Source: Gluconobacter wancherniae NBRC 103581
GTDB lineage: Bacteria; Pseudomonadota; Alphaproteobacteria; Acetobacterales; Acetobacteraceae
DNA length: 64,000 nucleotides
Assembly (NCBI RefSeq): GCF_007988885.1
Contig: NZ_BJUZ01000002.1
Coordinates: 248,001 to 312,000, forward strand
Reading direction: 5' to 3'
A program made the position numbers and the translations under genes. The notes beneath the pieces are model-generated. The model saw only the letters and a list, made by a program, of their open reading frames with translations. It made no database searches and was not told the DNA's origin. Positions 29,271 through 43,745 of the stretch are shown piece by piece (position 1 is the stretch's first letter; each line of letters starts with the position of its first letter).

Positions 29271-29951
29271 ATGCGTATCCTGCTCGTTGAGGATGATCTC
29301 ACTGTTCGCGCGTTCGTGCTCAAAGGTCTTCGTGAGGCCGGGCATGTCGTTGACGAAGCTGATAACGGCAAGGACGGTCTGTTCCTGGCCGTCAGTGAAA
29401 AATACGATATTGTCATTCTGGACCGCATGTTGCCGGGCGGTATTGATGGGCTGAGAATTCTCGAAACCCTTCGCGGGCAGCAGAACCCCACCCCGGTCCT
29501 TATTCTTTCTGCGCTTGCAGATGTGGACGAACGCGTTGCGGGCCTAAAGGCTGGCGGCGACGATTATATGACGAAGCCTTTTGCTTTCTCGGAGCTTCTG
29601 GCCCGCGTCGAAGCGCTTGGACGTCGTGGCAGGGCAGAAGCTGCACCACAGACGCGTCTGTCTGTTGCTGATCTGGAGATGGATCTGCTGTCGCGTACGG
29701 TCAAACGCGGCAACGAGAAAATTGATCTTCAGCCCCGAGAATTCCGTCTGCTCGAATTTCTGCTTCGCCACGCGGGGCAGGTCGTAACACGCACAATGCT
29801 TCTGGAGCGCGTGTGGGATTATCATTTTGATCCGCAGACGAATGTGATTGACGTGCACGTCTCGCGTCTGCGCCAGAAAGTAGACAAGCCGTTCGACACG
29901 CATCTGATCCACACCATCCGCAACGCTGGCTATATCCTGCGCGCGGACTGA
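29271..29951 (+). CDS. OmpR-family response regulator
   Basis: A 226-residue regulator. The receiver domain has VEDD near the N-terminus, the phosphoacceptor Asp in IVILDRMLPGG (about residue 51) and the conserved Lys in MTKPF. The C-terminal winged helix ends DVHVSRLRQKVDKPF...TIRNAGYILRAD, typical of the OmpR/PhoB group. Its cognate kinase gene begins nine bases downstream with GTG. The pair lies between a Deg protease and small exported-protein genes, suggesting an envelope role, but no specific signal can be named. Confidence 0.94.
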   Translation: MRILLVEDDLTVRAFVLKGLREAGHVVDEADNGKDGLFLAVSEKYDIVILDRMLPGGIDGLRILETLRGQQNPTPVLILSALADVDERVAGLKAGGDDYMTKPFAFSELLARVEALGRRGRAEAAPQTRLSVADLEMDLLSRTVKRGNEKIDLQPREFRLLEFLLRHAGQVVTRTMLLERVWDYHFDPQTNVIDVHVSRLRQKVDKPFDTHLIHTIRNAGYILRAD

Positions 29952-29959
29952 TTTTCCCG

Positions 29960-31369
29960 GTGAGAAAAATACGCGCCTTGATCCGCCTTCGGAAGCGCGT
30001 GCGCTGGCCGATCCGTTCTGCTGGCGTTAATTTCTCGCTGGCGTATGGGCTGGTTTTCGTCCTGTCGGCGGGGCTGTTCCTCTCCTTCATCTGGTGGAAC
30101 ACGACGGGACAGCTGGACCGTCGCGTCGAAGCCTCGGTGGAAGTCGATGCACAGGATCTACGCCAGCGCTGGGCCGCAGGTGGCCTTCCTGCGCTGGCCA
30201 TGGCGGTGCAGGACCGGCTTGATCAGAATGTGGAAGATGACGAGCTTTACCTCGTCGTAGGTCCTGATGGGCGGCGCTATGCCGGAAACCTTCCCGGCTG
30301 GCCCGCGCTCATCAGCAGTTTTAATCAATTTTACGAACTTTCCATCAGGCGAGACGGCTTCCGAACACAGGCCAAGCTGCACGCATATGCGCTGCCGAAT
30401 AATTTCAGGTTGATCGTCGGCCGGGACGTGCACGGCCGTGACCTTGTCCGCCATGTTCTGACAGACACGCTCATCTGGGCGTGGATCATGATTACGATGC
30501 TGGCTGCTGGTGGTGGCCTCGTGGTGCGTCGCATTTTCCGGCAGGTCGTCCGCTCGATTGCCAGAACCACTGCGGCAGTCGCCAATGGCGATCTCAGTCG
30601 CCGTATGAGCCTCACGGGTAGCGAAACAGACCTCGTTGCCCAGACCGTCAACACAATGCTCGAGCGTATCAACCGACTGATGGATGGCGTGCGCCAGGTA
30701 TCAAACGCCATCGCTCACGATCTGAGAACACCAATTGCGCGCGCTCGGACGCGGCTTGAAGATGCCAGCGCACATGCCGAGTCCGAGGAAGAACTTCGTG
30801 CAGCGATTGATCGTGCCGTTGAAGATCTTGATCATGTGACATCCATTTTTGAGGCGCTGCTTCGGATCGCACAGCTTGAGGCAGGGGCAAGACGGGCTGC
30901 GTTTACTGCGCTGGATCTGGCCCCGCTTCTGGATGGGTTGTGCGAACTTTATGAGGCATCAGCCGAGGAGGCAGGCCTTGGGCTCGTTGCCGAGATTGCT
31001 CCGCTGGCGCCGGTCAACGGTGATCCGCATTTGCTCCAGCAGGCCATTGCGAATCTGATGGATAATGCAATCAAGTTCTCTCCTCAGGGCACAGACATTA
31101 CCCTTTCCGCCAGATTGCAGCAGGGGCATGTGGCGATTACGGTCTCTGATCAGGGGCCAGGAATGAACGAGGCCGATCTGGCGCGTGCGTCCGAGCGGTT
31201 TTTCCGCGCGGAGGAAGCGCGCAATACGCCCGGCTCCGGGCTGGGACTTTCCCTGGTTCAGGCTGTTGCGAGCCTGCATGGCGGCACGTTTGTATTGAGC
31301 TCCGGCTCTCCGGGGCTGCGCGCGACCCTGCTTCTTCCCGTTCTCGCATCATCGACCCAAAAGGGATGA
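29960..31369 (+). CDS. Sensor histidine kinase paired with the OmpR-type regulator
   Basis: A 469-residue inner-membrane kinase starting with GTG. Two transmembrane helices (about residues 25-48 and 167-190) flank a periplasmic sensor of about 115 residues. A HAMP domain follows, then the dimerisation helix with the phosphoacceptor in AIAHDLRTPIARARTRLE (about residue 253), and the ATPase domain with the N box QQAIANLMDNAIKFS, VSDQGPGM and TPGSGLGLSLV. All catalytic motifs are intact. The gene follows its regulator by eight bases. Confidence 0.94.
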   Translation: MRKIRALIRLRKRVRWPIRSAGVNFSLAYGLVFVLSAGLFLSFIWWNTTGQLDRRVEASVEVDAQDLRQRWAAGGLPALAMAVQDRLDQNVEDDELYLVVGPDGRRYAGNLPGWPALISSFNQFYELSIRRDGFRTQAKLHAYALPNNFRLIVGRDVHGRDLVRHVLTDTLIWAWIMITMLAAGGGLVVRRIFRQVVRSIARTTAAVANGDLSRRMSLTGSETDLVAQTVNTMLERINRLMDGVRQVSNAIAHDLRTPIARARTRLEDASAHAESEEELRAAIDRAVEDLDHVTSIFEALLRIAQLEAGARRAAFTALDLAPLLDGLCELYEASAEEAGLGLVAEIAPLAPVNGDPHLLQQAIANLMDNAIKFSPQGTDITLSARLQQGHVAITVSDQGPGMNEADLARASERFFRAEEARNTPGSGLGLSLVQAVASLHGGTFVLSSGSPGLRATLLLPVLASSTQKG

Positions 31370-31442
31370 CATAAGTTTCATGTCCCACTCACAGAAGGGG
31401 CAGGTGCCTTGTGCTATTTCAGCGGCCATGCACCAGTTTCCG

Positions 31443-31787
31443 ATGAAGTCCTCCGCCCGTGCGGTGTCCCTGTCGGTGTTGTCCCTGAGCTTTTGCCTGG
31501 GGGCAGCTCCGGAAATGGCGATTGATCATGTTCCGTCCGCGAAAGCGGATGGAAGCATTTCGGTGACGTCTGACAGCCGCGAATACTGCCTTCGCCTGTC
31601 GCGAAATGTGCAGGAGCGGATGCAGACCCCGCATGGCATTCCTGTCAGTGCGATGGATGATGCACGTCACCTCCATGATACAGGCACAGCGCTGTGCAAC
31701 GGCCAGCATGTGCGTGCAGGGATCGAGAGGCTTCGTCGTGCGTTGGTATTGCTGAACACCAGTCAGGAACGCCAGGTACATTTATGA
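31443..31787 (+). CDS. Small exported protein of unknown function
   Basis: About 114 residues from ATG 31443, which starts a plausible signal peptide (KSSARAVSLSVLSLSFCLGA). Other in-frame starts exist at 31380 and 31428. The mature part contains two cysteines (EYCLRL and ALCNGQ) that could form a disulfide, and a C-terminal helix-like segment. No family is recognised. Its stop overlaps the start of the SIMPL-domain gene by four bases (ATGA), so the pair is translationally coupled. Confidence 0.65.
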   Translation: MKSSARAVSLSVLSLSFCLGAAPEMAIDHVPSAKADGSISVTSDSREYCLRLSRNVQERMQTPHGIPVSAMDDARHLHDTGTALCNGQHVRAGIERLRRALVLLNTSQERQVHL

Positions 31788-32482
31788 AGCGTCTTTTTCT
31801 TCTCTGCTCCGCCGTCTTCTCTGCTGCCGCGCTGGCAGGGTCTGCCCATGCTGCCGATGCTGGGCCGGATAGCGGGACGAAACTGGAATTTACAACCGAA
31901 GGCCGGGCCCAGGGCGTACCTACACTCCTGACGATCCGACTGTTTGGTCATGCATCCAATGCTAACCCCGCGCAGGCACAGCAGATTCTGAATAGACAGA
32001 TCGCTACGGCTATCAAGGCGGCGTCCGGTCAGGATGGTATCGAAGTTCGGGCAGGTTCTTACGGTATTTCGCAGGAATTTCCCGAGCATGGCACGGTGCA
32101 CTGGAACGCGCGTCAGGACCTTACGCTTAGCGGAACGGACTCCGTTCGTCTGCTCGCAATTGCCGGAACCTTGCAGGAGCAGGGCCTGGCAATGGAAGGT
32201 CTGGACTGGTCCCTTGATCCGCAGACCCGCGATCACCTGATGCAGGATGCCCGCAAGCAGGCGCTGGAAAAAGTGCGTAAGGATGCTCAGGCTGATGCTG
32301 AAGCTCTGGGCTTACGATTTGTAGGCCTTACGAATGTGCGCGTTTCAACAACGGAACCCGGCCCAAGGCCTATGATGCTCATGGCGGCGCGCATGGCTTC
32401 GGCACCGACGCCTCCTCAGAGTTCGCCCGAGGAGCAGACCCTGCGCGTGACCGTATCGGTGCAGGCGAAACTGGCTCCCTGA
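31784..32482 (+). CDS. SIMPL-domain (DUF541) periplasmic protein
   Basis: A 232-residue exported protein. A signal peptide (about residues 1-23, ending AHAAD) precedes a DUF541/SIMPL-type domain, recognisable from the helix segment ARKQALEKVRKDAQADAEALGL and the closing beta strands LRVTVSVQAKL. Family members include E. coli YggE, linked to oxidative-stress tolerance; the mechanism is unknown. It is coupled to the small exported protein upstream and is followed one base later by the DCC-family gene, so the three form an operon. Confidence 0.82.
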   Translation: MKRLFLLCSAVFSAAALAGSAHAADAGPDSGTKLEFTTEGRAQGVPTLLTIRLFGHASNANPAQAQQILNRQIATAIKAASGQDGIEVRAGSYGISQEFPEHGTVHWNARQDLTLSGTDSVRLLAIAGTLQEQGLAMEGLDWSLDPQTRDHLMQDARKQALEKVRKDAQADAEALGLRFVGLTNVRVSTTEPGPRPMMLMAARMASAPTPPQSSPEEQTLRVTVSVQAKLAP

Positions 32483-33477: not shown

Positions 33478-34473
33478 TTAGCGTAAGGGTTGTGAGCGTA
33501 GTCTCAGGATGTCTTTTGGGTCCAGATCCGGAAGATCGGGGCCAAGCGGAACAATACCATTGGGATTAAGGGCCTTGATGGAATAATAGCCCTGTTTGAT
33601 ATGCTCGACACTGACTGTTTCGCGTATTCCGGGGATATGAAGCACGCGATGCAGGTATGCGTTTAGGGCAGGATAATCCAGCAGACGCCGAAGATTGCAT
33701 TTAAAAAGCCCATGATAAGCCGCATCAAAACGTACCAGTGTAACGAAGAGGCGGATATCGGCTTCCGTGAACGTATCTCCCAGCAGCCATGGACCGCCTG
33801 CACCCAGTCTGGTTTGCAATGCATCAAGCGTTGAAAAAACGTCCAGAAACGCTTCCTCATACGCTGGTTGTGTGGTGGCAAATCCGGTGCGGTACACGCC
33901 GTTGTTCAGGTTCGGGTAGATCCAGTCATTCAGCGCGTCGATTTTATCGCGCAGGGCAGGTGGGTAGAGATCTATGCTTTCATCAGCCAGCTCCCCGAAA
34001 CCTGAGTTGAAAATACGCAGGATGTCGGAGGATTCGTTATTGACGATCGTGCCGAGCTTCCGGTCCCACAATACTGGAACGGTCGCCCGGCCAGTATAAC
34101 GTGGATCTGCACGGGTATAGAGTTCGTGCATGTACGTTGCACCGTTTATGGTGTCTTGCGTAGCGCCCGGATAGCCGCCGAATTTCCATCCCTCCTCGGT
34201 CAGGACAGGATTGACGATCGAGACGGAAACAATGTGTTCAAGCTTCTTTAGCTTTCGGGCGATCAGGGCCCGACAGGCCCAGGGGCAAATCAGCGCAGCG
34301 TACAGGTGGTAACGCCCTGCTTCTGCTGTGAAGTCGCCCTCGACATCGGAGGTGGATGAAGTTGGAGGTGTGATCAGGCTTCGGAAACCCGAAATCTGGC
34401 GCACGAAGCCACCTTTTTCATCCTTGGCCTGAACTGGCTGCCAGTTTTCTGACCATTTTCCGTCGACAAGCAT
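33478..34473 (-). CDS. Glutathionyl-hydroquinone reductase (YqjG/ECM4-type GST)
   Basis: A 331-residue xi-class glutathione transferase that reduces glutathionyl-(hydro)quinones to hydroquinones with glutathione. The catalytic cysteine lies in ICPWACRALIARKLK (about residue 62), the family's CPWA motif. The C-terminal all-helical domain contains PNLNNGVYRTGFATTQPAYEE, characteristic of YqjG/ECM4 proteins. Length matches the 320-330 residue norm. It follows the second YceI gene by 21 bases in an operon that also encodes cytochrome b561, consistent with quinone metabolism. Confidence 0.95.
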   Translation of the reverse strand: MLVDGKWSENWQPVQAKDEKGGFVRQISGFRSLITPPTSSTSDVEGDFTAEAGRYHLYAALICPWACRALIARKLKKLEHIVSVSIVNPVLTEEGWKFGGYPGATQDTINGATYMHELYTRADPRYTGRATVPVLWDRKLGTIVNNESSDILRIFNSGFGELADESIDLYPPALRDKIDALNDWIYPNLNNGVYRTGFATTQPAYEEAFLDVFSTLDALQTRLGAGGPWLLGDTFTEADIRLFVTLVRFDAAYHGLFKCNLRRLLDYPALNAYLHRVLHIPGIRETVSVEHIKQGYYSIKALNPNGIVPLGPDLPDLDPKDILRLRSQPLR

Positions 34474-34494
34474 GATCTATCCCTGCCGCAAGCT

Positions 34495-35082
34495 TTACTG
34501 GTGCGCAGTGAGGTCGAAATCGACCCCGACTTCAAGCGCAACCCATTGCCCGCTGACCCACGGCCCTTGCCCAACTCCAAAGTTGGTGCGAACGAGCTGC
34601 ACATGGCCTGTTGCGTGTGCATCCTGCCCCTGCACGGCAAGTGTGAATGGCAGCGTCAGTGGTTTCGTGACATTGCGGATCGTCAGTTTGCCTTGGGCTT
34701 CGTAATGTCCCGCGCTGATCAGTCGAATGGATGAGCTTTCGAATGTTGCTGTCGGAAAGGTGGACGTACTGAACCAGTCTTTTCCGGGGAGCGCACCATC
34801 GCGCTGTGCATCACCCGTAGCCGCGCTGGCCATGTCGATGGAGATCTGGATGTGGCCTGTCTCGGGGTGTTGCGGATCGAGAGAAATCGTTCCGCCGAAT
34901 TTTCCAAAATGGCCTTTGAATGGCGTGCCAGTCTGGGTCCCGCTGAAACCCAGCGTGCTTTTTGTTCCGTCCAGAGTCCAGTCTGCGGCGCGTGCCGAGT
35001 GACCTGAAAAAAGCAGTCCGATGGAAAGGGCGCTGACCGTCAGGGCATTGCGAAAGGTGAAGGTGGTGTGTGTCATGGTCAT
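34495..35082 (-). CDS. YceI-family periplasmic lipocalin-like protein (second copy)
   Basis: A 195-residue exported protein with a signal peptide (about residues 1-32, ending ARAADWTLD). YceI proteins form a lipocalin-like beta-barrel that binds a polyisoprenoid such as ubiquinone. The typical segments STLGFSGTQTGTPFKGHFGKF and FESSSIRLISAGHYEAQGKL (each given only in part of the full domain) are present. Its start overlaps the end of the cytochrome b561 gene by four bases, showing coupling. A second YceI gene lies upstream of the cytochrome. Confidence 0.9.
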   Translation of the reverse strand: MTMTHTTFTFRNALTVSALSIGLLFSGHSARAADWTLDGTKSTLGFSGTQTGTPFKGHFGKFGGTISLDPQHPETGHIQISIDMASAATGDAQRDGALPGKDWFSTSTFPTATFESSSIRLISAGHYEAQGKLTIRNVTKPLTLPFTLAVQGQDAHATGHVQLVRTNFGVGQGPWVSGQWVALEVGVDFDLTAHQ

Positions 35083-35702
35083 GCTTTCCGAACGGAAGGT
35101 GAGTGCGGGGTTTTGCTGAAGCGGGGGAGAAAGATCATGCGCCCTGCGACGCCGTCATGGAGGACGAAGCGGTGGCGCAGGACGGCTCCGATATGCGCCG
35201 CAAGGAGCGCAATCATCAGCCAGGCACCGTATTTGTGCAGCGCCGTCAGAATGCCTTCAGCAACATCCTTGTGGTCCATGTTTGGTAACACGGGCAGATC
35301 CGGCCACGGAATTTCCCCGAACAGAACCGTCGGGATCGAAAAGGCGGAAGCGGATACCACGCCCCAGCCGAGCAAGGGCAACCCGAGCATCAGTGCGTAG
35401 AGAGCGATATGCCCTGCATGTGCTGTCTTGCGCTCAATGCGTGGCATTGTTGCAGGCAAGGCAGGTGCAGCATGCGTCAGGCGCCAGATAAGCCGCAGGA
35501 TAACTGCAAAAAGGACAGTGATGCCGATGGATTTGTGCAGCTGGAAAAGTTGGAACATGCGCTGGGGTGGAAGGCCGCCATGTTTCATGATCAGGCCAAT
35601 ACCCAGCAGGGCGAGGATACCAAGTGCCACGATCCAGTGCAGGATCATGGCGACTGTGGTGTAGCGGCCGGCATTGCCGACCGCAGACGGCAATGCCGGC
35701 AT
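35079..35702 (-). CDS. Cytochrome b561
   Basis: A 207-residue inner-membrane diheme cytochrome with four transmembrane helices. Likely heme ligands are His in ILHWIVALG (helix 1), in LHKSIGITVL (helix 2), in HAGHIALYALM (helix 3) and in LLAAHIGAVLRHRF (helix 4). Such proteins pass electrons between ubiquinol and periplasmic acceptors such as superoxide. It is sandwiched between two YceI genes: it starts four bases after the first and overlaps the second by four bases. Confidence 0.93.
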   Translation of the reverse strand: MPALPSAVGNAGRYTTVAMILHWIVALGILALLGIGLIMKHGGLPPQRMFQLFQLHKSIGITVLFAVILRLIWRLTHAAPALPATMPRIERKTAHAGHIALYALMLGLPLLGWGVVSASAFSIPTVLFGEIPWPDLPVLPNMDHKDVAEGILTALHKYGAWLMIALLAAHIGAVLRHRFVLHDGVAGRMIFLPRFSKTPHSPSVRKA

Positions 35703-35706
35703 TGGA

Positions 35707-36315
35707 TCAACCCTGCTTTTCGAAAGCGCCAGCGATCGTCAGTGTGACGTCATCGCCAACCATTGGAACATAGGTCTTCACGCCGAACTCGGAACGCTTG
35801 ATCTTACCCGTGGCGCGGAAACCGACTGTATAGGCCTTGTCGAGAGGATTGATGCCCGCGTTGATATACGTGACATGCAGGGTGACTGGCTTGGTCACGC
35901 CGTGGAGCGTGAAATCACCGGTGACCGTTGCCTTGTTTGCGCCAGCCGGAACAACCTTGGTGGAGACAAATGTCGCTTCCGGGAACTTGGTGGCGTCGAA
36001 CCAGTCAGCGCCCTTGAGTTCGCCTGTCAGCTTGTCGCTGGTCGTCTGTACGCTTGCAACGGGAACATGAATGCTCAGGCTGGAATCCGCAGGATGTGCA
36101 GGGTCGAGTGTCAGCGTACCGGTAACGCCTGAGAACAAGCCATTATAGTCCGTGAAGCCGAAATGCAGCAGCGAAAAGCCGATCTGCGTGTGGGATGTCT
36201 CGACGTTGTATGTGCCAGCCTGCACATCGCGAGGTGCTGTTGCTGCGGAGGCAGTGGAAAGCGATGCGACGAGGCCGAGAGCTGCGAGCGACGTGCCGAG
36301 GAACTTGCTGTTCAT
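35707..36315 (-). CDS. YceI-family periplasmic lipocalin-like protein (first copy)
   Basis: A 202-residue exported protein with a signal peptide (about residues 1-24, ending ASAATA). The mature part is a YceI domain, recognisable from YNVETSHTQIGFSLLHFGFT and from GDFTLHGVTKPVTLHVTY. It probably carries ubiquinone or a related isoprenoid in the periplasm. It is the first gene of the YceI-b561-YceI-reductase-esterase operon. A GTTCCG/CGGAAC hairpin (36342-36359) lies in its leader. Confidence 0.93.
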   Translation of the reverse strand: MNSKFLGTSLAALGLVASLSTASAATAPRDVQAGTYNVETSHTQIGFSLLHFGFTDYNGLFSGVTGTLTLDPAHPADSSLSIHVPVASVQTTSDKLTGELKGADWFDATKFPEATFVSTKVVPAGANKATVTGDFTLHGVTKPVTLHVTYINAGINPLDKAYTVGFRATGKIKRSEFGVKTYVPMVGDDVTLTIAGAFEKQG

Positions 36316-36453
36316 GTGTCTTATCCCGTTCAGTGGGGGCCGTTCCGGAGGAGCGGAACCCCGTTTGTCTGGGAAGAAGATGTGCTCATTCCTGAAGTTT
36401 GATAATCAGCTTTTTTGGAAATTTATATCACACTGCTGGTGTGAGATTGGATG

Positions 36454-37191
36454 TCATTCTTTCCACCCGAGGATAATTGCAGGATTTAGGTTTCCGAAAG
36501 AGATGATACGGAAAACCCTGTGCATGAAAGGCTTTTGGACCGTAACAATACAGCCATTCTGCTGAAGAATTTTCCTGTATTCGGCAGGGTGCCGTATATC
36601 TTCAATCAGGATTTTTCCGCCGGGCTTCAGGACGCGGATAATTTCAAGAAGTGCCCGTTTTCTCTGATCGGCTTTGGCGATGTTGTGGATTGCAAGCGCC
36701 GAGATCACGATGTCCATCGACGCCCCTGCAAAGGGAAGCTCGCGCATGTCTGCCGTCCGGAACGATACACGGTCGCTTACGCCTTCCTTGAGCGCATTGT
36801 CCTGTGCTGCCTGAGGGGAGTTGCCACTGAGATCGGATGTCTGCCAGATATCGATGCCGGTTACCTGCCCCTCCGGCAGGCGATGCGCCGCGCCAATCGC
36901 CAGCAGACCGCGCCCGCAGCCAATGTCCAGAACGTGTTCGTCTCCACGCCACACCAGCTTTCCCAGAAGTTTTTCGCGCTCTGGGACTTTTCGAAAACTG
37001 CTCCAGATCATGGCAAGGGTGCCAAAGGTCATGAAAGCAGCAGGCCATTCCATCCAATTGATGCGAAGCGGCATGGAATCCACAAAACTCAGGCCGTAAA
37101 CCAGCCACAACAGCAGCGAAACAACCGTCATGTTGCGCACGACATCTGGTGCGTCGAGGCCATAGGGAAAGAGCTTTTTCATAGGGCGCAT
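36454..37191 (-). CDS. Class I SAM-dependent methyltransferase with N-terminal membrane helices
   Basis: A 245-residue methyltransferase. Two hydrophobic segments (about residues 20-38 and 48-64) precede the catalytic domain, which holds motif I VLDIGCGRGLLAIGAA (about residue 87), the acidic motif II GIDIW and the post-motif segment LKPGGKILIEDIR. It is therefore probably anchored to the inner membrane and may act on a lipid or quinone-like substrate; this last point is inference. It sits upstream of the YceI operon on the same strand with a 138-base gap. Confidence 0.85.
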   Translation of the reverse strand: MRPMKKLFPYGLDAPDVVRNMTVVSLLLWLVYGLSFVDSMPLRINWMEWPAAFMTFGTLAMIWSSFRKVPEREKLLGKLVWRGDEHVLDIGCGRGLLAIGAAHRLPEGQVTGIDIWQTSDLSGNSPQAAQDNALKEGVSDRVSFRTADMRELPFAGASMDIVISALAIHNIAKADQRKRALLEIIRVLKPGGKILIEDIRHPAEYRKILQQNGCIVTVQKPFMHRVFRIISFGNLNPAIILGWKE

Positions 37192-37298: not shown

Positions 37299-40200
37299 TC
37301 AGGATACGGCCATGAGGCGCAGATCTCCCGCCACGGCGGCTGTATTTATGCTCACCAGGCGCTCTTTCATCAGCCATTCCGGGCGTACGCTGTCTAGAGT
37401 GTGGATCGGAACAATTCGCCCCTCACGTGCCGTCAGTGTGGACGCAGCCTGCTGTGCGAGCGGAGAGTCGGCTTCCATCAGCATGGTCGAACATTCCGGC
37501 AGCGCACCCGGATCAACGCGCTGGACCCAGTCTTTCAGTCCTGCCGAAAGACGCGACATCCATTCCACAGCATGGTCCGGTCCTAGAACCAGCGCAACGT
37601 TCCCCGTGCCCAATGCCATACCCACAGCTCTCAGAATCGCGGGCCAGCTATCTCCGGCGCACAGGACTGGCCCACCGGGTACAAGACTGTAGGTTTCTGT
37701 CTCGCCGGATGGAGCAGGCAGCGTCATCGTCAGCCCGACCATACCGTGCGAGATGTCCTGCCTTATGCGTCTGGCAGAAACCGCGTCCCGGCTTTCGAGA
37801 AAGGTCACAAGGCTTCGGGCCGCATGAGGGATCATGCTGGCTGTCGTAGCGCCTTTGGGTACGTGCCAGGGATTGACCTGCGCGCTCATGCGTCTCAGCG
37901 CAAAAGGACCGCCCATCTTGGGACCCGTACCTGACAGGCCATGCCCTCCGACGGGACGGGAGCCTGCCACGGCCCCCAGAAGTCCTCGGTTGACGTAAAT
38001 ATTTCCCGCAGTGCTACGCGCTACCGCACGGTCGATGGTGGAAGACAAACGGGATTGGATGCCGAAAGCCAGCCCATATCCCGTGGCGTTCACCGCATCA
38101 ATCACCCCGTCGAGTTCGCTGCGGGCATAGCGGCGGATATGTAGGACCGGACCAAAAACTTCGTTGCTGATATCTGCAACGCGCCCGATTTCAATCAGGG
38201 TGGGAGCTACAAAATGCCCATGGCGGCAGGTTTCTCCCGGTTCAAGGCTCCATATCGGCCGACCTGCCCGCCGCATGCGATCAATATGGTCCTCGATTTC
38301 AGCCTGAGCCTCCGAGGAAATAACCGGTCCTATATCCGTTAGAAGACGCGCAGGATTGCCGATCGAGAGTTCGCGCATGGCACCGCGCAGCCTCTCCAGA
38401 AACGCGTCCGCACAGTCTTCCTGAACGAGTAGGATGCGGAGCGCTGCACAGTTCTGCCCGGAACTGTCGAACGCTGAGGAAATGATGTCGCGTATGGCCT
38501 GTTCGGGCAGGGCGGAACTGTCCACGAGCATCGCATTTTGCGCGCTCGTCTGCGTGATGAGTTGAACGGGCAGGCCGGTTCGTCCTACCCGCCCGAAAAG
38601 GCGGCGGGAGAGGTCTTTTGCGGCGGCTGTGGCGCCGGTGAACATGACTGCGTCCACACGCATGTCTTCCACAAGTGCGGTGCCCAGAGCTGCATCGCCG
38701 GGCAACATGTGCAGCGCTTCGGGAGGGACGCCCGCATCATGCAGGATCTGCGTCGCGCGGGCTGCGATCATAGGGGTTTGTTCGGCTGGTTTGGCAATGA
38801 CGGCATTGCCTGCAGCCAGCGCGGAAGCAACCTGCCCCGTAAAGACGGAAAGCGGCGCGTTCCATGGGCTCAGACACGCCACAATCCCCAATGGCGCCAC
38901 CTGCACGCGATGATCACGCCCTCGCAGACGCTCTGCATCATATCGCAGCAGATCGACCGCTTCCCGCAGCTCACGAACAGCGCTGGAGAGCGTTTTGCCT
39001 GCCTCACGGATCAAAAGAGCCAGAAGCTCAAAGCTTGCGGCTTCCATAAGGTCTGCAGTGCGATCCAGAACCCGGGTCCGCTGTTCGGGCGATTGCAGGG
39101 ACCACGCCGTCAGGCCCTGTTCAGCAGAAAGCAGTGCTGCGGTGAGTGTCTCGCCATCTGCTTCCACAACTTCCGCAACACGATCATTGCGCTCCGCGGG
39201 GTTGTAGAGAATGCGCGGACGTCTTGTTGGGGCAGGCGCGTCCGGCGTTATTGGTTCCAGTCGATAGACGGGGCCAGCACGATCAATGGACGTTTCAAAT
39301 GACCGCAGGGTTTGCTCGTCCGTAATGTCAAAGCCTGCTGAGTTCCGATGTCCTGGTTCAAACAGGTCTGAAGGAGCGCGAATGGATGGATTTGCACATT
39401 CGGATGCAGGGATTGCCCGCGCGGCCCTTACTGGATCGACAATCAGTGCTTCGACCGATACGGCCTGAGACGCAACCTGATTGATGAAAGAAGAGCTAGC
39501 ACCATTTTCAACAAACCGGCGAAGAAGATAGCCAAGTAGTGTTTCGTAGGTGCCAACCGGCACATACACCCGGCAGGGTACGTCGAGGCCTGATGGACTC
39601 AGAACTTCCCGAGACAGTGTTTCCGCCATGCCATGCAGGCATTGGAATTCGTAGCGGCCAGCCTGAAAGGGGCCTGCGATTGTGTGGATATGTGCGATCG
39701 TCTGGGCGTTGTGCGTCGCGAACTGGGGATAGATTTCTGCTGGTGCGCTCAGCATGCGGCGGGCGCAGGCGAGATAGCTCAGATCCGTATGGCATTTGCG
39801 CGTAAAAACCGGGAAATCCAGCCCCTCCACCTGTGCACGCCGGATCTCGCGGTTCCAGTAGGCGCCCTTGACGAGCCTGACCATAATCCGCCGGTGCGTA
39901 CGAGCGCCGATATCGATCAGGATATTCAGGAGTTCCGGTGCGCAGCGATTATAGGCCTGAAGTGCGAAGCCCAGACCATTCCAACCCTCCAGTTCCGGCA
40001 ACGTGCATAGCGCCTCGAACACGTCGAGCGCGATATCCAGACGTTCGCTTTCTTCCGCATCGATCATGAGACCGATATCCAAATGCCGTGCGCGGATGGC
40101 CAGCCTCTGAAGGACAGGCAGGAGTTCGTCCATGATGCGCGCGCGTTTCGTGCGGCTGAAACGTGGATGCAGTCCCGAAAGCTTCAGGGACAGGCTGGGG

Positions 40201-40964
40201 CGCTCATGGATCGTTCCCGAAACACCGGCATGTTGCCCAAGTGCCTCAAGCGCCTGTTCACATCGCTCCAGAAAAGCTGAGGCATCCGTGGCCGTAAGGG
40301 CAGACTCTCCAAGCATGTCATAGGAAAAAGTAAATCCGCGTGCTGCCTGTTCCCGACTGGCCTTCAGGGCTGCGTGAATGTTTTCTCCGGGAACGAACTG
40401 GCTGCCCATTATGCGAATGGTGCGGTCCATCGCACGCCGGATCATGGGTGCGCTTGTCAGTGATGTCAGGCTCCGGAGACTGAAGCCCTTTGAAGCCGTC
40501 AGGCGCCCTGCCAGAGACATGCCTTTGGCAGCCGCATTGACCAGTAGTGATTTGTCGCGCCCGATGTTGCGTGCCCAGTCTCCTTTCCCGACCTGATCTC
40601 GGATCAGGGCATCCTGCGTGGCTGTGTCGGGAATACGTAGCAGGGCTTCAGCCAGTCGTAGCAGAGACTGACCTTCCGCAGAGCCGAGGGGAAATGCCTG
40701 CATCAGGCTCTCCAGCGCTCCGGGATCACGCTCGCGCATCTGAAGAGAAAGCCTGCGCGCGAGATCCGATACCTGCAGCGCCTGTTCGCCATCGGGTGTT
40801 GCGTCTGCCATCAGCGCTGCAACGCATTCCGCCTCCGGCCTGCAACGCGCTGCGGACAGAGCATCCCGCAGGGCTGAAGGCACCGGGCGTGAAAGCAGAA
40901 ACTCGGAAAACACGTCGAGTGAGCGCGGTAGCGGCTTCGTCGTCGGGTGGGGCATGTTGTCCAT
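37299..40964 (-). CDS. putA: Bifunctional proline dehydrogenase / P5C dehydrogenase PutA, altered aldehyde dehydrogenase motifs
   Basis: A 1221-residue PutA that should oxidise proline to glutamate: the FAD-dependent PRODH barrel first, then the NAD-dependent aldehyde dehydrogenase. PRODH motifs are intact (RLVKGAYWNREI, RKCHTDLSYLACARRML, YEFQCLHGM, YLLRRFVENGAS). There is no ribbon-helix-helix DNA-binding domain at the N-terminus, so it should not regulate its own gene. In the dehydrogenase half, NAD-binding segments are normal (SPWNAPLSVFTGQ, AKPAEQTP), but the usual ETGGQNA reads QTSAQNA (Gln805) and GQRC reads GQNC, with Cys839 retained. The C-terminal extra domain is present. It is divergent from the TPR glycosyltransferase gene. 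ATG 40955 is an alternative start. Confidence 0.95.
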   Translation of the reverse strand: MDNMPHPTTKPLPRSLDVFSEFLLSRPVPSALRDALSAARCRPEAECVAALMADATPDGEQALQVSDLARRLSLQMRERDPGALESLMQAFPLGSAEGQSLLRLAEALLRIPDTATQDALIRDQVGKGDWARNIGRDKSLLVNAAAKGMSLAGRLTASKGFSLRSLTSLTSAPMIRRAMDRTIRIMGSQFVPGENIHAALKASREQAARGFTFSYDMLGESALTATDASAFLERCEQALEALGQHAGVSGTIHERPSLSLKLSGLHPRFSRTKRARIMDELLPVLQRLAIRARHLDIGLMIDAEESERLDIALDVFEALCTLPELEGWNGLGFALQAYNRCAPELLNILIDIGARTHRRIMVRLVKGAYWNREIRRAQVEGLDFPVFTRKCHTDLSYLACARRMLSAPAEIYPQFATHNAQTIAHIHTIAGPFQAGRYEFQCLHGMAETLSREVLSPSGLDVPCRVYVPVGTYETLLGYLLRRFVENGASSSFINQVASQAVSVEALIVDPVRAARAIPASECANPSIRAPSDLFEPGHRNSAGFDITDEQTLRSFETSIDRAGPVYRLEPITPDAPAPTRRPRILYNPAERNDRVAEVVEADGETLTAALLSAEQGLTAWSLQSPEQRTRVLDRTADLMEAASFELLALLIREAGKTLSSAVRELREAVDLLRYDAERLRGRDHRVQVAPLGIVACLSPWNAPLSVFTGQVASALAAGNAVIAKPAEQTPMIAARATQILHDAGVPPEALHMLPGDAALGTALVEDMRVDAVMFTGATAAAKDLSRRLFGRVGRTGLPVQLITQTSAQNAMLVDSSALPEQAIRDIISSAFDSSGQNCAALRILLVQEDCADAFLERLRGAMRELSIGNPARLLTDIGPVISSEAQAEIEDHIDRMRRAGRPIWSLEPGETCRHGHFVAPTLIEIGRVADISNEVFGPVLHIRRYARSELDGVIDAVNATGYGLAFGIQSRLSSTIDRAVARSTAGNIYVNRGLLGAVAGSRPVGGHGLSGTGPKMGGPFALRRMSAQVNPWHVPKGATTASMIPHAARSLVTFLESRDAVSARRIRQDISHGMVGLTMTLPAPSGETETYSLVPGGPVLCAGDSWPAILRAVGMALGTGNVALVLGPDHAVEWMSRLSAGLKDWVQRVDPGALPECSTMLMEADSPLAQQAASTLTAREGRIVPIHTLDSVRPEWLMKERLVSINTAAVAGDLRLMAVS

Positions 40965-41089: not shown

Positions 41090-41111
41090 TGTGGCGTGGA
41101 AAGGATACCCC

Positions 41112-42860
41112 ATGCCCCATAGCCAGCTCGAAACGTCTCTTGAGCAGACCGCCTGCGCCGCTTCAGGGAGGAGAGAGGAACTCGAGAATGCGGAGTTGCT
41201 GTTTGGCAGCGGATTGCTCGACGAGGCGCGGAATTCTGCGTTAGCGGCCATGGAAGAGTTCCCGCTTCCTGCGTCTCTGATGTTGGGGCGGATTGCGCTT
41301 CGGTCGCAGAATTTTGTGGAGGCTGACTACTATTTCCGCAGGGCGCTCGAATGTGAGAATGCAGCCACAACACGCCTTTTCCTCGTTGCGGCATTGACGG
41401 GCGCGCGGCGCCCGCAAGAGGCGCTTTCGGAACTGTGTGTTGCTATTCGGGAACTGCCCGAAACTGCCCGAATGATGTTTCAGGTTGGCGGTCTGTATGA
41501 AGCTCTGGAACAATTCGAGGATGCCGAGGCTTTTTACGAGCGAAGCCTGAAAAAGCAGCCCGCTCCACGCGTGCAGCATCGTCTGGGAACGGTACTGCTG
41601 ATGCAAAACCGTGTGGCAGACTCCATTGCCGTGTTTGAAAGCTTATGCAGAGCCGAGCCCGGGAACATCGATTATCGCATCGATCTGGGCACTGCATATG
41701 CGCGATCCGGCAATTTTGAAAATGCATTATCCTGTGCGCTGGAGGCAATTCGTGCGCGGCCTGAGGATGTTATGGCACTCAATAACGCGGGTTATGCGTT
41801 GCAGTGCCTTAACCGGAGCCAGGAGGCACTCCAGTTCTATGACCGGGCTGTGGTGGTTGACCCGGATTATGCGCCCGCCCGTTTTGGTAGAGCAGTGGCT
41901 CTTCTCAAAAATGGCGCCTTCGCAACAGGCTGGGCAGAGTATGACTGGCGATGGCTCCACGGTCAGAGCATGCGAACAGACCTCAAGGTTCCATTCTGGC
42001 ATGGAGAGGATCTTACCGGCAAAACGATTCTTCTGCACTCGGAGCAGGGGTTTGGCGATACGCTCCAGTTCATTCGCCTTGCTCAGGATGTGGCAAGGCT
42101 TGGTGTCCGTGTATTGGCACACGTGCCCCCGGCTCTCGTCAGGCTGATGGAGAATGTTGAAGGGCTGGCTGGCGTATATGCGGCATGGGACGGAAGTGTT
42201 CCCATTGATTATCACTGTCCGTTGCTCAGTGTTCCTGCACGAATTGGCTTGATTCCCGCTAATTTTCCAGCCGCGCCATATCTGTCCGTTTGCCCGGAAA
42301 TGCAGAAGGAATCTGGGGAAAAGCTCCGGCACACAGTGGCGGGGAAGGGAGATAAGCCAGATCTGATCGTAGGGCTGGTCTGGGCAGGCGACCCGCGCCC
42401 GCATGATAAGGCCGCTGCACACACTGATGGCCGTAGGAGTATGACGCTGGCGGATTTCGCACCGCTGGCCCGCGTTGAAGGCGTGCGTTTCGTCAGTTTC
42501 CAATTCGGGGTTGCCCGCGAACAGATTTCTACAGCACCCTTTCCCATTACGGACGCAATGGATGGCGTAACCGATTTTCTGGATACCGCTGCCTTGTTGT
42601 CCGGCATCGACCTTCTGATCAGTGTTGATACATCGATTGTGCACCTGGCTGGAGGGCTCGGTGTGCCGGTGTGGGTGCTATCGCGTGCAGATGGGTGCTG
42701 GCGCTGGGGGGAGAACGTCAGTACGACCCCGTGGTATCCTCAGACCCGTATCATCCGTCAGGAAAAAGCCCATGACTGGGCGCCAGTCATAGCGGAAGCT
42801 GCGGGTCTTTTGGGGCAGGTGGTAGACATCTATCGGACGACTCTGGCTGGGGTCGCGTGA
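41112..42860 (+). CDS. TPR-repeat protein with C-terminal glycosyltransferase-like domain
   Basis: A 582-residue protein. About seven tetratricopeptide repeats occupy residues 15-275 (for example AEAFYERSLKKQPAPRVQHRLG and the Asn-rich repeat ALNNAGYALQCLNRSQEALQFYDRAV, given in part). The C-terminal domain contains KTILLHSEQGFGDTLQFIRL and the sugar-nucleotide-site-like LLISVDTSIVHLAGGLG, as in GT41/GT9-related proteins encoded beside flagellar or surface-glycan genes. The ATG at 41112 has AAGGA eight bases upstream. It probably glycosylates proteins or glycans in the cytoplasm. Confidence 0.85.
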   Translation: MPHSQLETSLEQTACAASGRREELENAELLFGSGLLDEARNSALAAMEEFPLPASLMLGRIALRSQNFVEADYYFRRALECENAATTRLFLVAALTGARRPQEALSELCVAIRELPETARMMFQVGGLYEALEQFEDAEAFYERSLKKQPAPRVQHRLGTVLLMQNRVADSIAVFESLCRAEPGNIDYRIDLGTAYARSGNFENALSCALEAIRARPEDVMALNNAGYALQCLNRSQEALQFYDRAVVVDPDYAPARFGRAVALLKNGAFATGWAEYDWRWLHGQSMRTDLKVPFWHGEDLTGKTILLHSEQGFGDTLQFIRLAQDVARLGVRVLAHVPPALVRLMENVEGLAGVYAAWDGSVPIDYHCPLLSVPARIGLIPANFPAAPYLSVCPEMQKESGEKLRHTVAGKGDKPDLIVGLVWAGDPRPHDKAAAHTDGRRSMTLADFAPLARVEGVRFVSFQFGVAREQISTAPFPITDAMDGVTDFLDTAALLSGIDLLISVDTSIVHLAGGLGVPVWVLSRADGCWRWGENVSTTPWYPQTRIIRQEKAHDWAPVIAEAAGLLGQVVDIYRTTLAGVA

Positions 42861-42863
42861 AAA

Positions 42864-43745
42864 TCAGGCCACCATCATCTCTGCAATTGTCCGGGCAATT
42901 TCTGCGATGATCGCATTCCCCGCATTTGCGGAGAGGGGGCTTCCAGTCAGATAGATCGAAAGGGCGAATGGCGTCTTTTCGGGAGGCATAATGAAAGCGA
43001 TGTCGTTGATCGTTCCACGACTTCCCGTTCCAGTCTTGTCTCCGACTCTCCAACTCTTGGGAACACCAGCCCTGATCCGGGCATCGCCAGTCTGATTGGC
43101 AACCATCCATTCCAGCAGTGTCCGGCGCGATGCAGAGGAAAGCGCATCGCCGCTAAGAAGTTGTGTGAGATTGCGGCTCATAGCTTCGGGAGTTGTGGTG
43201 TCTCTTGGATCACCAGGAAGGGCTTCGTTGAGTGCTGGCTCCCAGCGATCCAGTCTGGTCACCGTGTCGCCGATACTGCGCGCAAAAGCTGTCACCATAG
43301 CTGGGCCACCCAGCACCCGAAGAAGCGCATTGGCGGCCGTGTTGTCGCTGTAGCTGACGGCTGCACTGCACATATCCCCCAGTGTCAGATCAGCCGTTCC
43401 AATGTGTGGCTGAGTGATGGGCGAATAGTGCATGAGATCCTGAGGGCGGATCAGGATCTTTCGACTCAGGCTCTCCCGTCCTCTGTCGACCCGTGCCAGA
43501 ACGGCTGCGGACAACAGCGCCTTGCAGGTGCTGCACATCGGGAAGCGTTCCCCACCGCGATACGTGACAGCAGGTCTCGTTGTTCCTGAAAGATACGCAC
43601 AGACGCCCAGCCTTCCCCCGCTTTTGCGTTCGATCCATGCCAGCTTGCGATGAACATCATCTTCGGCAGCTCTGAGCGTGGTTGGGAGAGAGGACAGCAG
43701 AATTCCCGCCGTTAACAGACGTCGTGTCATGTAAGGACGAGGCAT
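42864..43745 (-). CDS. Class A beta-lactamase
   Basis: A 293-residue secreted serine beta-lactamase with a signal peptide (about residues 6-27, ending LRAAED). The class A motifs are all present: S-x-x-K as STCK, SDN as YSDNTAANALL, the omega-loop Glu in RWEPALNEALPGDPRDTTTP, and KTG as GDKTGTGSRG. A cysteine directly precedes the active Ser (MCSTCK), the position that in some carbapenemases pairs with Cys238, but position 238 here is Gly, so that disulfide is absent. It converges with the TPR gene. No dedicated regulator is nearby. Confidence 0.95.
   Translation of the reverse strand: MPRPYMTRRLLTAGILLSSLPTTLRAAEDDVHRKLAWIERKSGGRLGVCAYLSGTTRPAVTYRGGERFPMCSTCKALLSAAVLARVDRGRESLSRKILIRPQDLMHYSPITQPHIGTADLTLGDMCSAAVSYSDNTAANALLRVLGGPAMVTAFARSIGDTVTRLDRWEPALNEALPGDPRDTTTPEAMSRNLTQLLSGDALSSASRRTLLEWMVANQTGDARIRAGVPKSWRVGDKTGTGSRGTINDIAFIMPPEKTPFALSIYLTGSPLSANAGNAIIAEIARTIAEMMVA

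Follow-up and report, generated by a model that had tools for sequence, protein, structure and literature searches.

Identification of a PutA paralogue with altered catalytic residues

The contig NZ_BJUZ01000002.1 of Gluconobacter wancherniae NBRC 103581 was analysed from position 248,001 to position 312,000 (a stretch of 64,000 nucleotides, hereafter the window, whose own numbering is used throughout). It carries on its reverse strand a gene, here named putA2, for a paralogue of the bifunctional enzyme PutA. The reading that we favour with reasonable confidence, on comparison of the sequences, is that PutA2 represents a conserved lineage of PutA pseudoenzymes, kept beside an active-looking PutA and having a role that is probably non-catalytic. 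The window copy would be an intermediate, in which the proline dehydrogenase (PRODH) is probably live and the dehydrogenase for pyrroline-5-carboxylate (P5C) and glutamate semialdehyde (GSA) is probably dead. The gene and its domains are the following:

37299–40964, reverse strand: putA2, full-length type B PutA paralogue of 1221 amino acids (open frame, Pfam domains, tree, AlphaFold model)
39477–40370, reverse strand: PRODH domain, residues 199–496, canonical at 18 of 18 checked positions (Pfam PF01619, 301 bits; residue table)
37887–39206, reverse strand: aldehyde (GSA/P5C) dehydrogenase domain, residues 587–1026, predicted to be inactive on GSA (Pfam PF00171, 316 bits; residue table)
37302–37847, reverse strand: C-terminal domain (CTD), residues 1040–1221, better conserved than the PRODH domain among the altered copies (pairwise identities, domain conservation)

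The GSA dehydrogenase site is probably inactive

The catalytic residues were compared with those of PutA from Sinorhizobium meliloti (SmPutA), as described in a 2025 study (PMC12398946). In SmPutA, Cys844 is the nucleophile, Asn707 together with the backbone forms the oxyanion hole, Phe708 and Phe1010 make up an aromatic box, and Arg843 and Ser845 contact the carboxylate of GSA, while Glu810 promotes hydrolysis of the acyl-enzyme, which is visible in the E810A crystal. The corresponding positions of the window protein are:

38550–38552, reverse strand: Gln805 (CAG), which replaces the general base Glu810 of SmPutA (alignment, residue table, PMC12398946)
38445–38453, reverse strand: Asn838-Cys839-Ala840, with the nucleophile kept and the side-chain ligands of the GSA carboxylate, Arg843 and Ser845, replaced (residue table, PMC12398946)
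38856–38861, reverse strand: Asn702, which keeps the residue of the oxyanion hole, and Ala703, which replaces Phe708 of the aromatic box (residue table, PMC12398946)
37950–37952, reverse strand: Val1005, in place of the aromatic-box residue Phe1010 (residue table, PMC12398946)

The original prediction, made from this DNA alone, had pointed to the change of ETGGQNA into QTSAQNA (Gln805, CAG at 38552–38550) and of GQRC into GQNC (Cys839, TGT at 38450–38448), and both replacements were confirmed in an intact reading frame. It had also held that they are no frame error; the frame is open, the alignment with SmPutA runs without gaps across both motifs and several separate codons are changed, so that a sequencing or frame error was ruled out. 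Beyond this, residues that bind the substrate proved to be lost as well. In the numbering of SmPutA the changes are F708A, E810Q, R843N, S845A and F1010V, flanked by G812S and G813A (numbers 812 and 813 were counted on from that numbering) and by the change of Ser to Ala in the GST motif. At the seven positions N707, F708, E810, R843, C844, S845 and F1010 the window protein reads N-A-Q-N-C-A-V, and it thus keeps two of the seven residues (N and C) expected in a functional bifunctional PutA. When other PutAs were aligned at these positions, the pattern NFERCSF was found in 78 of 80 loci. These are the best 80 of the scan of genome contigs; they were selected for their likeness to the query and thus are not randomly sampled. 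The two exceptions, L047 and L048 (Gluconobacter cerinus NBRC 3267 and Gluconobacter sp. Gdi), belong to the lineage of the window gene.

The catalytic Cys and the segments that bind nicotinamide adenine dinucleotide (NAD) had been said to remain; this stood for Cys839 and for four of the five NAD positions checked, the Ser of the GST motif being Ala. The GSA dehydrogenase site is predicted from these residues to be probably dead on GSA.

The proline dehydrogenase site of the window copy looks intact

In SmPutA the PRODH site includes Lys265, Leu449, Tyr473, Tyr485, Arg488, Arg489, Glu492 and the gate residue Glu225, and the tunnel includes Glu309 and Arg312 (PMC12398946). The window protein has the residues of SmPutA at the PRODH positions named in that study. 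At all 18 positions checked, 10 of which are named there, it agrees with the canonical copies, and it therefore has the PRODH catalytic residues of a functional bifunctional PutA, as the original prediction of an intact-looking PRODH half had anticipated. The residues indicate a PRODH that is probably live. The labels of the flavin adenine dinucleotide (FAD) and NAD positions for which the SmPutA study names no number are those that we take to apply.

The window copy could also have received its PRODH domain from a canonical gene by gene conversion. This was ruled out, since trees of the PRODH domain, the aldehyde dehydrogenase (ALDH) domain and the CTD each placed the window copy in PutA2, which indicates that its PRODH domain was not copied from the canonical gene. 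The identity of this domain is 0.64–0.65 to the canonical-looking PutA2 copies described below, versus 0.57 to the canonical copy of its own genome.

Domain organization, predicted fold and automatic annotation

The putA2 frame comprises 1221 codons with zero internal stops. The Pfam families occur in the order two PutA N-terminal families, Pro_dh and Aldedh, and PRODH, ALDH and CTD were found in one chain according to Pfam, the structural model and Foldseek. The ribbon-helix-helix (RHH) family is absent from the Pfam matches, which fits a type B PutA, a type that lacks the N-terminal ribbon-helix-helix (type definitions from PMC5293562), and residue 5 of the window protein aligns with residue 5 of SmPutA at the start of the alignment. 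The protein also groups among acetic acid bacterial PutAs in the tree. By descent it is thus a type B PutA. Its Pro_dh score, 301 bits, compares with 351 and 331 bits for two canonical copies and with 168–216 bits for four other altered copies.

An AlphaFold model of residues 30–1221, obtained from an alignment of 34 rows, had a mean confidence (pLDDT) of 83.2 and a predicted template modelling score (pTM) of 0.85. Its best matches in the Protein Data Bank (PDB) were structures of S. meliloti PutA over the whole chain (TM score 0.87–0.90, root-mean-square deviation about 5 Å, ~44% identity). In the model, then, the fold is expected to be intact despite the altered active site.

Among the NCBIfam models, the protein scored above the cut-offs of PRK11904 (1129.7 versus 747) and TIGR01238 (551.3 versus 485.2) and below that of PRK11809 (1285.9 versus 1750). 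Since the first two cut-offs are passed, automatic annotation may label it a working bifunctional PutA.

Altered copies form a lineage

The relationships of the PutA proteins were analysed in a tree of 53 rows (quick IQ-TREE run, SH-aLRT support only). PutA2 forms a clade of 19 rows with a support of 100. At its base stand three copies with canonical residues, from genomes G073, G050 and G047, and the window copy is the first branch among the copies of its genus (support 100). The ten other rows of the genus, among which some are near-identical (L011/L012 and L032–L034), share E810R, F708S, K265R and Y473H in 10 of 10 cases; Asn707 is replaced by Ser or Cys and Arg489 by Gln or His, and C844 is kept in all ten. 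Catalytic residues of the GSA dehydrogenase are therefore missing in all 11 copies of the genus, that of the window included, and those of PRODH in all but the window copy. All 11 PutA2 copies of the genus have stop-free frames of at least 1216 codons, with identities to the window copy that go down to about 45%.

A second group of altered copies, from the genomes designated g85, accounts for seven rows of the tree. All six intact g85 copies have E810D and C844S, and their PRODH motif is altered as well. The same Asp/Ser pair occurs in an open frame in genome G033 (g9), a copy outside the tree; its match had been flagged for one TGA, which precedes the reading frame. These residues point to different replacements of the GSA dehydrogenase site in the genus and in g85. 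For PRODH the simplest account is two separate losses, one in each group, because within the altered clade the window copy retains a site that looks intact.

The family sample consisted of 397 genomes of a larger group, and what is said of it refers to the matches listed. A sample of the order (299 genomes) gave, among the matches listed, only genomes of the same family and no further PutA2 lineage. Outside these two samples the search consisted of the scan of genome contigs with its best 80 loci.

Some further observations were made on these sequences. The frame-broken copies of g85 (L235, L236 and L237, from genomes G325, G305 and G344) are closer to L139 in the part after the break than in the part before it. 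One Asaia PutA (L101) adjoins the canonical copy of g9 in the tree. Genome G089 has two PutA copies on separate contigs (L188 and L196), both with ETGGINA and otherwise canonical at the positions shown.

Altered copies are under purifying selection and conservation has moved to the C-terminal domain

The ratio of nonsynonymous to synonymous divergence (dN/dS) was calculated pairwise, using our own script for the NG86 method, for nine pairs of altered copies and, in the same nine pairs of genomes, for the canonical copies; the pairs share genomes and are non-independent. The ratio was 0.024–0.140 in eight of the nine altered pairs (the ninth was saturated) and 0.039–0.116 in the nine canonical pairs, several pairs having dS above 1; with the pairs at dS under 1 only, it was 0.024–0.073 (six altered pairs) and 0.039–0.116 (five canonical pairs). 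The altered copies other than that of the window are thus under purifying selection, as expected of a pseudoenzyme that is retained.

The distribution of conservation along the chain was also changed. The CTD had a higher identity than the N-terminal region plus PRODH in all nine altered pairs, with a margin below 0.01 for some of them, and in one of the nine canonical pairs, G007/G023. Conservation in matched genomes was then estimated with a column bootstrap, excluding near-duplicate genomes and G011, which has an active PutA of the other type. Four altered copies of the genus, the window copy not included, gave 0.545 for the PRODH domain and 0.684 for the CTD, and the canonical copies of the same genomes 0.819 and 0.556. 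For g85 (four of the six intact copies) the values were 0.664 and 0.850, versus 0.926 and 0.652 for the canonical copies of the same genomes, and the conservation of the ALDH domain was 0.810 versus 0.799. The three canonical-looking PutA2 copies showed the canonical pattern (PRODH 0.783, CTD 0.639). The 95% intervals of the difference between CTD and PRODH excluded zero in all seven sets run. In the altered copies, conservation is flipped from PRODH to the CTD.

A canonical PutA is present in the same genome

Nine matches to the ALDH family were found in the genome of G. wancherniae NBRC 103581, and two of them lie in frames of PutA length. One is the window gene. The other, G000:C1:173135-176692 (L037), lies outside the window and has ETGGQNA, GQRC, WNFP and the canonical PRODH motif. 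The original prediction had been made without knowledge of this copy, whose presence indicates that the pathway is not lost. The two proteins have the same domains and are 49% identical over nearly the full length; unlike the window protein, L037 has all seven GSA dehydrogenase residues, and it differs in its place on the contigs and in its position in the tree. The CTD of canonical PutAs of the L037 type diverges fast, unlike that of PutA2. One match to the P5C reductase family was found in the genome.

An active-looking PutA was present in 26 of 26 genomes of the genus, and PutA2 additionally in 11. Altered or broken PutA2 copies occur in 21 genomes (11 of the genus including that of the window, nine of g85, three of these being frame-broken, and one of g9), and an active-looking PutA accompanies them in 20, the exception being G344, a genome that is 85% complete. 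In the three genomes where PutA2 looks canonical, a threshold of E 1e-200 gave one further match in G050 and none in G047 and G073.

The active-looking PutAs of the genus are of two non-orthologous types, A in 11 and B in 15 of the 26 genomes (copies outside the tree were typed by motif and identity). PutA2 occurs with type A in 10 of 11 cases and with type B in 1 of 15 (Fisher p 2e-5). This association was set aside as evidence, since the type B genomes cluster in a tree of a neighbouring tetratricopeptide repeat (TPR) gene and may represent one or two events; that tree covers 25 of the 26 genomes (G015 is missing) and gave long-branch warnings.

The genomic context of putA2

The genes next to putA2 in the window are:

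41091–42860, forward strand: divergent TPR gene next to putA2, which also accompanies the three canonical-looking PutA2 copies and, in the genus, five of the ten other altered ones
33478–37191, reverse strand: GST-like, two YceI, cytochrome b561 and methyltransferase genes, between putA2 and a SIMPL-family gene
42864–43745, reverse strand: gene of the beta-lactamase family (PF13354, 158 bits), flanked by the TPR gene and an infC-like gene

Three genes at 29271–32479, on one side of putA2, had matches at every one of the ten other PutA2 loci in the genus. The other side, with genes that we take from their protein sequences to be infC and thrS, was matched in 6 of 10. The TPR gene was found in 5 of 10 of these loci and beside the canonical-looking PutA2 of G050, G047 and G073. 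These shared flanks indicate that the PutA2 copies of the genus and the three canonical-looking copies occupy a single ancestral locus and are orthologous.

The YceI, cytochrome b561, GST-like and methyltransferase genes had no match at the compared loci of other genomes. A function for PutA2 was also sought from its neighbours and the attempt was set aside: all five loci examined that lack putA2 have the TPR gene, and five of the ten other altered loci in the genus gave no match to it.

Proposed role of PutA2 and observations that weigh against it

By its residues, the window protein would oxidise proline to P5C with FAD, pass the electrons to quinone and leave GSA unoxidised. As originally suggested, the enzyme may stop at P5C, and its sequence makes this the most likely chemistry. 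The cell also has a canonical PutA; the P5C released might be used by that enzyme or turned back into proline by P5C reductase, for which the genome has one candidate. Proline oxidation to P5C cannot be what keeps the lineage, since the ten other copies of the genus have an altered PRODH site and are conserved. These copies and the window copy share the CTD, the ALDH-fold core and a part of the NAD site. The lineage may therefore be kept by a non-catalytic role in which the core and the CTD take part, for example in regulation, as a scaffold or by association with the membrane. In PutAs of types B and C the CTD has been linked to P5C dehydrogenase activity and channelling, and in the same text functional switching with proline-induced association with lipids is suggested (PMC5293562).

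A number of observations weigh against a conserved pseudoenzyme lineage. With regard to selection, the window copy has a dS of 2.4–2.7 to the copies compared, so that selection on it alone cannot be gauged and the open frame of 1221 codons is what speaks for it; for this copy taken by itself, plain decay retains some probability. The domain pattern has exceptions: the canonical pair G007/G023 lacks the canonical pattern, and the altered pair G003/G022 shows hardly any difference between the domains (0.836/0.838). In the pair G003/G024 (L032 and L033) dS is 0.146 in the CTD versus 0.68–0.80 in the other domains, which suggests recombination between species. With regard to the residues, the NAD site is kept in part, with Ser to Ala in the GST motif of the window protein and Glu to Ala in AKPAE in 4 of 10 other copies of the genus, and 17 positions of the residue table, fewer than all, carry SmPutA numbers named in PMC12398946.

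With regard to descent and retention, in the tree of the CTD the g85 copies grouped with G047 and those of the genus with G073, not joined directly as in the tree of the whole chain. None of the flanking genes of the window locus was matched at the six g85 loci that were compared, so that the orthology of g85 rests on the tree, and three of the nine g85 copies are frame-broken, at different places. No match to PutA2 was found in 15 of the 26 genomes of the genus. In five of these the TPR and SIMPL-family genes lie near each other and no putA remnant was found (E 0.05 for the best match at any point of these loci), which indicates that the gene is dispensable in some lineages. A sigma-70 scan upstream of putA2 found 0 promoters, the mean in shuffled sequences being 0.0, so that none was expected either. 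Finally, RcPutA, a type B PutA, is monomeric (PMC5293562), which disfavours a partner role.

Alternative explanations

A more specific form of the non-catalytic role is suggested by analogy, although we regard it as tentative and on the whole unlikely. PutA2 would be a bacterial prozyme, a dead PutA of 1.2 kilo-residues that tunes proline oxidation and uses its conserved ALDH-fold core and CTD to bind the active PutA or the membrane; it would have arisen more than once, as catalysis was lost in an enzyme whose CTD already had a second job, and the window copy would stand half-way, with PRODH alive. The fast divergence of the CTD of active PutA weighs against such a partnership.

Another explanation is plain decay: PutA2 would have become redundant once a second PutA took over and would now be disappearing, the open frames being functionless leftovers. 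This would explain why altered or broken copies occur almost only beside another active-looking PutA, the absence of PutA2 from many genomes of the genus with no remnant in the five loci checked, the three broken frames of g85 and a PRODH domain less conserved than the other domains. Plain decay is opposed by dN/dS ratios about as low as those of active-looking copies, by 11 of 11 stop-free frames in the genus in spite of the low identities, by uniform replacements at K265, Y473, F708 and E810 in 10 of 10 copies, and by a CTD that is tighter than in the active-looking enzyme. We consider decay improbable for the lineage; for the window copy, the open frame is the sole argument against it.

Improbable as well, and placed after decay, is a re-purposed aldehyde enzyme, in which a larger uncharged aldehyde would be oxidised or an acyl group handed to another acceptor. 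The original prediction had offered altered aldehyde chemistry as its second possibility, and we found no direct support for it. Cys839, Asn702 and most of the NAD site remain in a pocket without aromatic walls and carboxylate ligands, the Cys is kept in the window copy as well as in all ten others of its genus, the Lys of AKPAE and the Glu of EVFGP are kept in 17 of 17 altered copies tabulated, and the ALDH domain of g85 is about as conserved as the canonical one. Against this, the general base is replaced in the same 17 of 17 copies, the oxyanion Asn, present in the window copy, is replaced in each of the ten others of its genus and the Cys in 6 of 6 copies of g85, and the neighbouring genes give no hint of a substrate. 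An ordinary bifunctional PutA that tolerates the replacements is very improbable, since five of the seven catalytic and GSA-contact positions are replaced together and none is in the 78 canonical comparison loci, although the predicted fold is that of PutA and the cut-offs of PRK11904 and TIGR01238 (not that of PRK11809) are passed.

Relation to known systems and significance

Among the closest known systems is SmPutA (PDB 5kf6 and others), with the same domain order, length and predicted fold as the window protein; it has Glu810, Phe708, Arg843, Ser845 and Phe1010 and a working GSA dehydrogenase, and the window protein lacks all five residues (PMC12398946). As with PutA2, an inactive copy stands beside an active one in the prozyme of trypanosomatid S-adenosylmethionine decarboxylase (AdoMetDC) and in the dead paralogues of deoxyhypusine synthase (PMC5201418, PMC3663545, PMC10211241). 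In these trypanosomatid paralogues, activation of the partner in a heteromer has been shown; as enzymes they are unrelated to PutA2.

Among proteins with the ALDH fold, human ALDH16A1 lacks the catalytic Cys; ALDH16A1 and ALDH2 are not PutAs and have neither a PRODH domain nor the CTD of PutA. An inactive variant of ALDH2 is counted among the pseudoenzymes, a likeness to PutA2 in the ALDH fold, and pseudoenzymes and inactive paralogues are in general well known (PMC10211241). Searches of open-licence PMC articles showed no report that describes an inactive paralogue of PutA or what PutA does in Gluconobacter; three articles contain both names, and to judge by their titles none is on this subject.

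For annotation, the finding means that two NCBIfam cut-offs label the window protein a working GSA dehydrogenase and that its residues contradict this label. A lineage in which both sites are altered and the CTD is nevertheless tighter than in the active-looking enzyme of the same genomes offers a direct handle on the role of the CTD in long PutAs beyond support of the ALDH domain. The ordered series of copies, from those with both sites canonical, through one with PRODH intact and the GSA dehydrogenase altered, to those with both sites altered, may indicate how a large bifunctional enzyme becomes a conserved pseudoenzyme.

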